NCBI GenBank assembly: GCA_014800815.1
Contig: JAAVFI010000063.1
Coordinates: forward strand, 1 to 34,799
Reading direction: 5' to 3'
Source of the DNA: Bacteroidales bacterium
GTDB lineage: Bacteria > Bacteroidota > Bacteroidia > Bacteroidales > Muribaculaceae
Length of the DNA stretch: 34,799 nt
Shown: positions 5,059 through 32,028 of the stretch, one piece after another
How the letters are laid out: each line of letters opens with the position of its first letter
Position numbering within the stretch: position 1 is the first letter of the stretch
Program-made: the position numbers and the translations under genes
The notes under the pieces: model-generated
The model's database searches: none
Seen by the model: only the letters and a program-made list of their open reading frames with translations
Told to the model about the DNA's origin: nothing

Positions 5059-5113
5059 ATGATATAAGTGGTTGGATTATTTGTTCCTGTCTGTGTTCTA
5101 TGTATAATAGACG

Positions 5114-5121
5114 CAAAAATA
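5114..5121 (-). promoter_or_regulatory. -7 box upstream of the M16 gene
   Basis: On the minus strand 5121-5114 reads TATTTTTG, matching TAnnTTTG, about 55 nt before the ATG. The nearest TTTG (5137-5134) is only 12 nt away, closer than the usual 19-21, so the -33 assignment is open. Confidence 0.45.
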
Positions 5122-5249
5122 CTCAATTAATTACAAACGGGCGGGATTTGTTTATGTTAAAAAGTGTTTAACATGCTTTGCGGAGGCTTCTGACGATGCC
5201 TCTCCGGCCACCCGACAGTTGATTTCTTCTATATCTCACAGATTTTTCG

Positions 5250-5257
5250 TAACTTCG
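5250..5257 (+). promoter_or_regulatory. Probable -7 box for the Abi gene
   Basis: TAACTTCG differs from TAnnTTTG at one base and lies 18 nt before the ATG at 5276. It falls inside the longer open frame that begins at 5219, which argues for the 5276 start. Confidence 0.4.
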
Positions 5258-5275
5258 CATCTTTCAAAACTGTAT

Positions 5276-6154
5276 ATGGCGAAATCGGCAACTACAATAG
5301 AACAGCAACTTGACCTCCTGAAATCAAGAGGTCTCGCAATCTCAGATATTGAAAAGGCGAAGGAGATCCTTCTTGACGTAGGCTATTATCGCCTTGGATT
5401 TTATCTGTTCCCATTTGAAAAGACTTATCCCGGCCTGCGCGATCGCACCCACGAATATATCGAGGGCGCGTCGTTTGAGGACGCGGTCAATCTCTATTAC
5501 TTCGATTTTGACCTTCGTCTGCTGTTCATGCGCTATCTCAACCGTATCGAGATAGCCTTCCGCACTTCGCTCATATACAAGCTCTCAAATAAATATAATA
5601 CCACGCCGATATGGTTTGTAAGTCCTTCTGTTGTCAGTCGCTCGTACGCCCGTGACTTCGAGCGCAAGGTATATACCTCGGACTTCAAACGCAATCCTGT
5701 AATACATCGCCATCATCAGAGAAATCCCAACGACCGCTTCGCTCCGTCGTGGAAAACTCTCGAATTTATGACCTTTGGTGCCGTAATGAAGCTCTACGAG
5801 CAACTTAAAGAGCTTGAAGACAAAATCTCCATAGCCCATGAGTTCGGCATCCGGCAGATCGTTACGTTCGAGAATTATATGCACACTATCCGGCAAGTCC
5901 GCAATGTTTGTGCTCATGGACTGCTTTTGTATGATTTGAAGTTGCCGCAAGGTATTCGACGCGGCCCTGCGGCAAATGCGCCCAGCGAGAGGTACAACTT
6001 AATCGGCGCTCTGCGCGTTATTAAGTATGTAATGGGGCAGGTCTCAACAAATCGCTCCTCCGAATTAAGCGAGTCGATTAAGTCTCTTTACGAGACTCTT
6101 TGCAAGGCATCGCCGAAATTGAAACCGCTGATACCTGATTTCTCCACGATATGA
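5276..6154 (+). CDS. Abi family (Abi_2/AbiD-AbiF-like) HEPN protein
   Basis: This 292-residue protein resembles Abi_2 abortive-infection proteins, which are thought to act as HEPN-fold RNases that halt phage-infected cells. Two features show it. Near the N-terminus is the family hallmark GYYRLGFYLFPF (residues 36-47), and near the C-terminus is the HEPN catalytic motif RNVCAH (Rx4H, R209-H214). I chose the start at 5276 (MAKSATTIEQQ) over 5219 because family members begin shortly before the QLDLLKSRGL helix and a -7 box lies between the two. No partner antitoxin gene is adjacent. The next feature downstream is a promoter and candidate small RNA. Phage defence is inferred from the family, not shown by the sequence. 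Confidence 0.85.
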   Translation: MAKSATTIEQQLDLLKSRGLAISDIEKAKEILLDVGYYRLGFYLFPFEKTYPGLRDRTHEYIEGASFEDAVNLYYFDFDLRLLFMRYLNRIEIAFRTSLIYKLSNKYNTTPIWFVSPSVVSRSYARDFERKVYTSDFKRNPVIHRHHQRNPNDRFAPSWKTLEFMTFGAVMKLYEQLKELEDKISIAHEFGIRQIVTFENYMHTIRQVRNVCAHGLLLYDLKLPQGIRRGPAANAPSERYNLIGALRVIKYVMGQVSTNRSSELSESIKSLYETLCKASPKLKPLIPDFSTI

Positions 6155-6184
6155 TAATTTTAACACGGAATTTTTACTAAAAAT

Positions 6185-6215
6185 TTTGTCAAGTCAACTA
6201 AAAGCATTATCTTTG
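6185..6215 (+). promoter_or_regulatory. Bacteroidetes promoter for the twin-hairpin RNA
   Basis: TTTG at 6185-6188 and TATCTTTG at 6208-6215 are separated by 19 nt, the consensus arrangement. No open reading frame starts soon after it. Predicted transcription begins near 6220, just before the first hairpin. Confidence 0.75.
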
Positions 6216-6221
6216 CATCAT

Positions 6222-6315
6222 CATAGTGCCTTTGGAGACTTTAGTCGCTCCAACTTGCACTCTAAAAAAAGGTAAAGTCGAGGCTGCCACTTAGTCGGGT
6301 AGTCTCGCTTCTTTT
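6222..6315 (+). ncRNA. Candidate small RNA with two hairpins sharing one loop sequence
   Basis: Hairpin 1 (6226-6260) has stems GTGC/GCAC and TTGGAG/CTCCAA around the loop ACTTTAGTCG. Hairpin 2 (6279-6307) has a 10-bp stem including two G-U pairs around the loop ACTTAGTCG, and is followed by CTTCTTTT. A consensus promoter sits directly upstream, and the next gene has its own separate promoter, so this looks like an independent short transcript. I do not recognise the family; it shows no features of SRP RNA, tmRNA or RNase P RNA. It could also be a leader or repeat element. Confidence 0.5.
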
Positions 6316-6367
6316 ATGTATCTGCACGGACCTTTCTTTTTCCGCATCAAATGGGCGCTTCTATTTT

Positions 6368-6398
6368 TTTGCCGATTAGCCGAAAATGTCTAACTTTG
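6368..6398 (+). promoter_or_regulatory. Promoter of the six-gene run 6451-10693
   Basis: TTTG at 6368-6371 and TAACTTTG at 6391-6398 have a 19-nt spacer. The ATG of the DUF4199 gene follows 52 nt later. Confidence 0.8.
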
Positions 6399-6450
6399 TA
6401 GGCTACTTAAGTAAGACTTGAAAATTACTTTATAAAAAACAATACAACGT

Positions 6451-7017
6451 ATGACCACACCCCAGACTCCTCCGAGACCAATCCTTGCCCGCGCGGGCGA
6501 GAGCGGACTCGTAATAGGGCTTTATATATGTGCGTTGGCAGTGTGCACGGCTTTCTCGCCATACTCCGGCATTGCCGTGGTGCTGGTTTGGTTAGGCTCG
6601 CTGGCCATGCCTTTTGTGCTTTACCGCCTGATACGCAAGAGCAATATGTCGGCAGGCTACAGCCTCGGTTTTCCCGAACTGTGGGCCGAGGGCATAGGCA
6701 CATTTTTCTTCGGAACGCTCATCCCCGCGGCCTTTGTCTACGCATGGTTGCGCTTCGTATCTCCTGAATATATCTCGAATACGGTGGCGTTTACCATTAA
6801 GACTCTGCGCGAGGTGCCCGAACAGCAGTATGCCGATATGGCCAACCTGCTGAGCGATATATATTCCAAGAAAATGCCGACGGCAGCCGACGTCACGGCC
6901 AATCTAATTTCGTTCAATATCATTGTGGGTACCGTTATGTCGCTGATAGTGGCCGTCTTTGTCAAGACAGCGTCTATCCGCCGACGCATGCAGCGTCTAC
7001 CCGAAAACAATCTCTGA
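6451..7017 (+). CDS. DUF4199 family membrane protein
   Basis: A 188-residue inner-membrane protein of the Bacteroidetes DUF4199 family; its function is unknown. About four hydrophobic segments are visible: roughly residues 18-37, 40-58, 80-100 and 150-172. Between the last two is a soluble stretch rich in charged residues (about 108-145), and the C-terminus is basic (RRRMQ), probably cytoplasmic. It is first in a tightly spaced run with the GT2 glycosyltransferase gene 3 nt downstream. That pairing is familiar in Bacteroidales and suggests a shared role in lipid-linked sugar or membrane processes, although the sequence gives no direct proof. Confidence 0.8.
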   Translation: MTTPQTPPRPILARAGESGLVIGLYICALAVCTAFSPYSGIAVVLVWLGSLAMPFVLYRLIRKSNMSAGYSLGFPELWAEGIGTFFFGTLIPAAFVYAWLRFVSPEYISNTVAFTIKTLREVPEQQYADMANLLSDIYSKKMPTAADVTANLISFNIIVGTVMSLIVAVFVKTASIRRRMQRLPENNL

Positions 7018-31198: not shown

Positions 31199-32028
31199 AA
31201 CTCACTTTTCTTGGCACCGGCACCTCAACGGGCGTACCTCAGATGAGGTGCGATTGTGAAGTGTGCCGCTCGTCCGATCCGCGCGACAACCGCCTGCGAT
31301 GTTCGGCCCTGCTTGAGATAGAAGAAGGCCTGCCAGGTATTCTCATCGACTGCGGCCCCGATTTCCGCTCACAGATGCTCCGCGAGCAGAGTCCCGACCT
31401 CGCCTGCGCCGTCCTCACCCATAGTCACTACGACCACGTGGGAGGTGTCGACGATTTGCGTCCCTATGCCTATTCAGCCCCCGGCGAGCATTTCCCGCTC
31501 TACTGTCAGGCCGACGTCGCCGCCGACCTCCGCGCGCGTATTCCCTATTGCTTCACCGAGCACCCCTACGCCGGCGTGCCTCAGTTCGACCTCCGCATAG
31601 TCGAGGCCTACAAAACTTTTTCAATAGACCTCGGTAGGGGAGTGACAGTCGAAGTTCTGCCGCTCGAAATCATCCACGGCAAGCTGCCGATTCTCGGCTA
31701 TCGCTTTGATTCACTTGCATATATCACCGATGCAAGTTACGTTCCAGAGCGCACCGTCGAAGCTCTCCGCGGCGTCGACACACTCGTCATCAACGCCCTC
31801 CGGCACGAGCCGCACTTCTCTCATCTAAACCTTAGGCAAGCTCTCGACGTTATAGAATTGACGGCACCGAGGCAGGCTTACCTAACTCACTTCAGTCATC
31901 AGATAGGGCTCCACAGCGAACTCCTGAAGATACTACCCGAAAACGTTCACCCTGCCAGCGATCGTCGTCAGATAATTATAACCGACGATAAAACGCTTAA
32001 CTATGGCAGCAGAAATAACTTATCTTGA
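31195..32028 (+). CDS. MBL-fold metallohydrolase, PhnP-like
   Basis: A 277-residue cytoplasmic metallo-beta-lactamase-fold hydrolase. The metal motif HSHYDH is at 76-81, with TDASYV (third-metal Asp) and NALRHEPHFSH, THFSHQIG later in the chain. The N-terminal MRCDCEVCRS carries Cys residues that form the structural zinc site in PhnP-type phosphodiesterases. Such enzymes cleave cyclic or small phosphodiesters; the substrate here is unknown. It overlaps the preceding gene by ATGA and the next by 26 nt. Confidence 0.92.
   Translation: MKLTFLGTGTSTGVPQMRCDCEVCRSSDPRDNRLRCSALLEIEEGLPGILIDCGPDFRSQMLREQSPDLACAVLTHSHYDHVGGVDDLRPYAYSAPGEHFPLYCQADVAADLRARIPYCFTEHPYAGVPQFDLRIVEAYKTFSIDLGRGVTVEVLPLEIIHGKLPILGYRFDSLAYITDASYVPERTVEALRGVDTLVINALRHEPHFSHLNLRQALDVIELTAPRQAYLTHFSHQIGLHSELLKILPENVHPASDRRQIIITDDKTLNYGSRNNLS

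Follow-up and report, generated by a model that had tools for sequence, protein, structure and literature searches.

AbiF toxins and their RNAs

An AbiF toxin and its small RNA have been described in Clostridioides difficile, where RCd22, an RNA of ~100 nucleotides (nt) whose two abiF hairpins are separated by 19 nt, binds and neutralises AbiFCd of prophage phi027, and where mutations in the RCd22 stems abolish neutralisation (PMC12373285). RCd22 lies upstream of its gene, is co-transcribed with it, carries two Rfam abiF motifs and has a separate terminator (PMC12373285). PbAbiF is described as forming a homodimer that holds its RNA in two copies (PMC12373285), one per subunit (PMC12737573), and Cas13 has been proposed to descend from AbiF pairs. 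The way in which AbiF RNAs restrain the toxin is under active study. Here we describe an AbiF-type gene and, downstream of it, a predicted two-hairpin RNA in a Muribaculaceae genome (Bacteroidales bacterium, assembly GCA_014800815.1, contig JAAVFI010000063.1); "the window" is the whole stretch analysed, 34,799 nt. We conclude that this RNA is very probably the antitoxin of an AbiF toxin-antitoxin pair and would bind and inhibit AbiF. AbiF antitoxin RNAs are known; this two-hairpin form is unmatched in Rfam and is also found without a toxin gene.

The locus resembles RCd22/AbiFCd in pairing an Abi_2 toxin that carries a HEPN motif with an RNA of ~100 nt that has its own promoter, and its hairpins lie 17 nt apart, compared to 19 nt in RCd22 (PMC12373285). 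Unlike RCd22, the window's RNA is downstream of the gene, has no Rfam match and has a second hairpin that is itself terminator-like. The features are as follows.

5276..6154, plus strand: abiF, Abi_2 (AbiD/AbiF) HEPN ribonuclease toxin gene, 292 amino acids, ATG start
6185..6188, plus strand: TTTG, putative -33 box of the RNA promoter, read in the sequence and conserved in the clade
6208..6215, plus strand: TATCTTTG, putative -7 box of the RNA promoter, from the count of TAnnTTTG across loci
6225..6261, plus strand: hairpin 1, likely AbiF-binding motif, loop at 6238-6247 (fold, covariation and covariance model)
6262..6278, plus strand: A-rich linker, conserved in the clade
6279..6307, plus strand: hairpin 2, terminator-like, loop at 6289-6297 matching that of hairpin 1 (fold and covariation)
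6308..6318, plus strand: U-rich tail, interrupted, probable 3' end (read in the sequence)

An AbiF-family gene followed by a predicted small RNA

The gene at 5276-6154 belongs by sequence to the Abi_2/AbiF family of phage-defence toxins, and its product is predicted to be toxic. It matched PF07751 with an E value of 4.3e-45 (154.7 bits against a cut-off of 25.6, Pfam, frame read from 5219), the PADLOC AbiD model (E 5.3e-53) and PDB 8vz6 (E 4.5e-26 as a single sequence, 4.2e-46 as a profile). The HEPN RNase motif R-x4-H is intact as RNVCAH. The listed open reading frame begins at TTG 5219, and ATG 5276 was preferred from the N termini of relatives. A first-pass annotation, made from the sequence alone, had singled out the two hairpins and overlooked this gene, which belongs to a family with known antitoxin RNAs.

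Hairpin 1 starts 70 nt after the end of abiF (6154). It consists of an outer stem AGUGC/GCACU, an asymmetric internal loop and an inner stem UUGGAG/CUCCAA closed by the loop ACTTTAGTCG, while hairpin 2 has 10 pairs and the 9-nt loop ACTTAGTCG. The fold of 6185-6330 had a minimum free energy of -36.4 kcal/mol (z = -1.98, equalled by 6 of 200 shuffles); the opposite strand folded no better than shuffles (z = -0.40). The two stems of the first-pass annotation were reproduced with coordinates that moved by at most 1 nt, and the near identity of the loops that it had noted was equalled by only 2 of 20,000 random pairs of 10- and 9-nt sequences drawn from the composition of the region. Upstream stand TTTG, a 19-nt spacer and a TAnnTTTG motif, boxes that we take to be a promoter on the Bacteroidota consensus; the same 19-nt-spaced site had been proposed before. 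A simple terminator scan, whose limit for loops is 8 nt, reported no terminator at hairpin 2, which has a 9-nt loop. The U-rich end of the earlier description is present after hairpin 2, in an interrupted form that the scan did not report. Together, the conserved structure and boxes predict a small conserved RNA of ~95 nt (about 6221-6314) with its own promoter-like site, as first suggested.

Co-occurrence of the RNA with abiF

Relatives of AbiF were collected from GTDB contigs (48 loci), 149 genomes of the family (48 matching at E 0.001), 397 genomes of the family (109 at E 1e-15) and 344 genomes of the order (40 at E 1e-15). These sets overlap and only part of the matches was fetched. Removal of duplicates by shared sequence reduced 177 records, 174 of them with a match, to 139 loci, which were split at 180 bits into 88 near the window's protein (the window included) and 51 more distant; L048 and L114 sit in the distant set as fragments.

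A pattern search combined with a fold test placed a two-hairpin RNA downstream of the gene in 71 of the 88 loci and upstream in 3. A covariance model and inspection added four downstream RNAs, in L015, L020, L106 (cut by a contig end) and L068 (where hairpin 1 is shortened), and one upstream, in L155. In total, 79 of the 88 non-redundant loci in this AbiF subfamily have the RNA next to the gene, 75 downstream and 4 upstream. In the 71 pattern-found downstream loci, hairpin 1 begins a median of 63 nt after the stop codon (range, 29 to 118 nt), and TAnnTTTG occurs 7 to 16 nt before hairpin 1 in 70 of them, compared to 7 of 70 in a control stretch. The U-rich stretch that follows hairpin 2 in pattern-found loci was built into the search.

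The covariance model, R1, was trained on 18 RNAs, none of them from the window's AbiF clade. Its seeds L017, L024, L025 and L109 are outside that clade at 60% identity, yet have the same loop type. With R1, the RNA of the window reached 49.8 bits (E 3.2e-10) and the next best match 17.5 bits.

Gene and RNA are also absent together at one site. An M16 peptidase gene lies upstream of abiF on the minus strand and a DUF4199 gene follows the RNA, 1392 bp apart in the window and about 250 bp apart in the same-genus locus L203, where the gap holds neither abiF nor the RNA. This is a single comparison, as L203 alone among 29 relatives' loci has the peptidase beside DUF4199 in the fetched stretch.

Two further kinds of known RNA invite comparison. 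Like the Rfam abiF RNA (RF03085), it is a small RNA whose hairpin has an asymmetric internal loop and adjoins an Abi_2 gene; unlike RF03085, it has a different sequence, is not matched by the RF03085 model and stands on the opposite side of the gene in most loci. As in type III toxin-antitoxin systems such as ToxIN, the antitoxin gene would adjoin the toxin gene and the RNA would be expected to bind the ribonuclease toxin directly. The ToxIN toxin is unrelated, and its RNA consists of tandem repeats upstream, under a shared promoter and with a terminator before the toxin gene (PMC12373285), unlike the downstream RNA with its own TAnnTTTG box found here.

Conservation and covariation of the two hairpins

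The 15 relatives in the window's clade agree with the window at 0.85 in the TTTG box and 0.88 in the second box, compared to 0.52 in the spacer between them and 0.48 before the boxes. Within hairpin 1, agreement is 1.0 on both sides of the outer stem, 0.91 and 0.61 on the two sides of the inner stem, 0.80 in the loop and 0.45 in the bulge. It is 0.91 in the linker, 0.87 and 0.84 in the arms of hairpin 2 and 0.92 in its loop, then falls to 0.64 in the tail and 0.26 after 6320.

Because alignments of whole RNAs put some hairpins out of register, the hairpins were aligned separately. The counts hold for the aligned rows, 32 of 50 distinct hairpin 1 sequences and 22 of 47 distinct hairpin 2 sequences; 8 loci with other forms of hairpin 1 and hairpin 2 forms longer than 32 nt were left out beforehand. 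In hairpin 1, 96.3% of cells pair. The outer stem is invariant at four of its five pairs and unpaired at the other in 8 sequences; two-sided changes occur at each of the five inner pairs. In hairpin 2, 99.5% pair, with two-sided changes in all 10 pairs. Compensatory changes, which the first-pass annotation had named as a test of the stems, are therefore found in both. The covariation score was reached by none of 500 shuffles for either hairpin. Weaker measures were often met by shuffles: the number of pairs with two-sided changes in 30 and 31 of 500, and the number of further pair types in 1 and 75 of 500, for hairpins 1 and 2, respectively. The rows are related, and these measures count sequences rather than events.

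The loops follow the clades. Both loops start with ACTT in all 16 RNAs of the window's clade, except for ACAT in hairpin 2 of L008. In a test covering 74 of the 88 loci, the shared loop stood out in 5 of 15 clades, the window's and four others, partly with other sequences: L016 (CTATGTC type), L041 and L042 (CAAGTC type) and L017 (ACTT..GTCG again). Viewed as a repeated antitoxin motif, the two hairpins have loops that match in these clades and stems that differ. The shared loop of the earlier description holds in the window's clade, where the loops are conserved, and is not supported as a general rule. We read the loop of hairpin 1 as a contact site, which hairpin 2 shares in some clades. Of the loop roles proposed in the first-pass annotation, binding a protein fits best.

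By eye, GACUUU (about 6237-6242) could form a pseudoknot with AAAGUC (about 6276-6281) in the window's clade only. The pairing is nearly invariant where present, so covariation is uninformative. Kissing of the two loops likewise looked possible by eye in the window's clade. Neither interaction could be made out in RNAs of the L018 and L042 types, and both were set aside.

A distant subfamily with the canonical abiF RNA

At E 0.01, R1 matched two of the 51 distant Abi_2 loci: L048, which is a fragment from the first subfamily, and L072, at 21 bits. By eye, many distant genes have a single hairpin like the Rfam abiF RNA upstream, and RF03085 passed its gathering score in 8 of 20 distant loci tested as a positive control; it was found in 7 of 198 genomes of the order. 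The window's own genome holds one of these RNAs, on contig C4 at 31779-31815 (46.9 bits), just upstream of a second AbiF gene (L175). That second AbiF is nearer to PbAbiF-AbiFr (PDB 8vz6; E 6.8e-51) than is the window's AbiF; the 8vz6 toxin is homologous to the latter, and its dimer is described with two single-motif RNAs. A hairpin near 5170-5195, upstream of the window's abiF, has a loop that recalls the canonical abiF loop. It was rejected as a candidate: it was not seen upstream of the gene in 25 relatives, and the Rfam search gave no abiF match there at E 10.

Proposed mechanism and alternatives

The antitoxin reading draws on the identity of the gene, its intact HEPN motif, co-occurrence, the promoter-like boxes, compensatory structure and the joint absence at one empty site, from which we infer transcription, toxicity, binding and the role of hairpin 2. 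AbiF would act as a HEPN ribonuclease that cuts cellular RNA and stops growth, an abortive defence against phage. The RNA, transcribed from its own promoter, would fold into two hairpins, bind AbiF and hold it inactive, with hairpin 1 as the main binding motif and hairpin 2 ending transcription. The homology of AbiF and the similar layout of the RNA suggest, by analogy, that AbiF is probably neutralised here as it is by RCd22. The simple scan, which also missed hairpin 2, saw no terminator between abiF and the RNA, so the toxin messenger RNA (mRNA) may continue through the RNA as far as hairpin 2, in which case each toxin message would carry a copy of the antitoxin.

Several results weigh against this reading or parts of it. 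No RNA was found in 9 of the 88 loci (L033, L034, L038, L039, L148, L153, L156, L157 and L158), and the HEPN motif is intact in all nine, which a simple antitoxin story does not explain; most of these RNA-less AbiF proteins start with MGRKAKP or similar. Rfam searches, at the gathering score over the window and at E 10 over 5100-6460, did not list RF03085. R1 at E 0.01 missed the pattern-found RNA in L066, L107, L143, L145, L149 and L154 and, in 4 further loci with two RNAs, the first one. In 10 of the 15 clades the loops of the two hairpins matched no better than, or hardly better than, those of other clades. The overall loop-match test gave a mean P of 0.075 for the 15 clades and 0.006 for 27 less independent clusters, and a post hoc test of GTC in both loops gave P values of 0.46, 0.058 and 0.001 at 15, 27 and 51 clusters.

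The matching loop of hairpin 2 in the window's clade could be a second docking site, with one RNA serving both subunits of a toxin dimer, a possibility that we rate below even odds. We give about even odds to the plainer account in which the RNA is an antitoxin and hairpin 2 only an intrinsic terminator, with a loop that resembles its partner through duplication of the hairpin or by chance and has no role in binding. The 10 clades without a distinctive match and the U-rich stretch after hairpin 2, present in pattern-found loci by construction of the search, are consistent with the terminator, and a duplicated hairpin turned terminator is as plain a history as a docking site. Against it, the loop of hairpin 2 is better conserved in the window's clade than the arms, which change with compensation, and loops match in four other clades, partly with other sequences.

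Two readings would dispense with the antitoxin. A small RNA that acts in trans, pairing with mRNAs through its loops, and lies beside abiF by chance would account for the promoter-like site and for the copies that stand alone (see below), but AbiF adjoins the RNA in 79 of the 88 subfamily loci and at 12 of the genus's 16 strong matches, and the loop sequence changes from clade to clade, which makes this reading very improbable. The same variation of the loops would suit a guide RNA with which AbiF selects RNA targets in the manner of a Cas13 ancestor. That, too, we regard as highly improbable, as the clade has no spacer-like variable stretch, the linker being among its best-conserved parts, and the effector is absent beside the solitary RNAs.

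Rfam gave only chance-level matches (E 5-10) for the window's RNA and matched no family in the loci of 19 relatives, in agreement with the earlier statement that no known RNA family could be recognised. No downstream AbiF RNA with two hairpins is described for Bacteroidales in the literature searched, and the main text of PMC12373285 does not contain "Bacteroid". The covariance models for AbiF RNAs from Zilberzwige-Tal et al. (Cell 2025), mentioned in PMC12804078, may include this RNA.

Solitary and tandem copies

R1 gave 19 matches in 16 of 49 genomes of the genus. Sixteen scored above 39 bits, of which 12 adjoin an AbiF gene (one as a remnant at a contig edge) and 4 do not; the three others, at 31 to 35 bits, are probably chance. 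A search of 295 genomes of the order under stricter filters gave R1 matches in 7 at E 0.001, of which two scored 31 to 33 bits. The four RNAs without AbiF beside them are L177 (the window's genome, contig C32, 10966-11045, minus strand), L188, L190 and L191. All four are well-formed two-hairpin RNAs with promoter boxes, and hairpin 1 of L177 is identical to that of the systems L064, L140 and L152. A tblastn search with 139 AbiF proteins found none within 1.5 kb on either side of the four RNAs, and genome searches found no AbiF on their contigs (E 0.001 for three genomes, E 1e-15 for G477). We regard these four as candidates for solitary antitoxins.

A broader scenario, which we offer tentatively and think unlikely in its entirety, is that these RNAs form an unlisted Bacteroidales branch of AbiF antitoxins. 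The usual order would be reversed, with the RNA after the toxin gene and under its own promoter; the terminator hairpin would copy the binding loop in some clades, letting one RNA clamp both subunits of the dimer; and solitary and tandem copies would give immunity to incoming AbiF elements of other types. The copies that stand alone, with no toxin gene, point to the possibility that gut bacteria maintain antidotes against toxin-bearing elements. Natural data on the points of contact with the toxin are available from a branch whose RNA is different and varies in its stems and loops over dozens of genomes.

Other arrangements were seen among the relatives. L060, L062, L112 and L146 have tandems: downstream of abiF, the first two-hairpin RNA is directly followed by a second whose type is that of another clade. 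The RNA at L104:1328-1405 is a chimera that joins an L102-type hairpin 1 to an L018-type hairpin 2, as though systems had swapped hairpins. At L026:2031-2118, upstream of the AbiF gene, lies what looks like the remains of a two-hairpin RNA, lacking the 5' half of hairpin 1.

Surroundings of the locus

A separate TAACTTTG box belongs to the DUF4199 gene, from 6451, and the relative that lacks the insert has TAATTTTG at the same place, in keeping with the earlier proposal that the next gene has its own promoter. A phage or plasmid origin was considered and rejected, as 262 plasmid and 24 phage records matched only distant AbiF proteins, all below 60% identity. Four IMG/VR contigs hold AbiF relatives with 49 to 52% identity.
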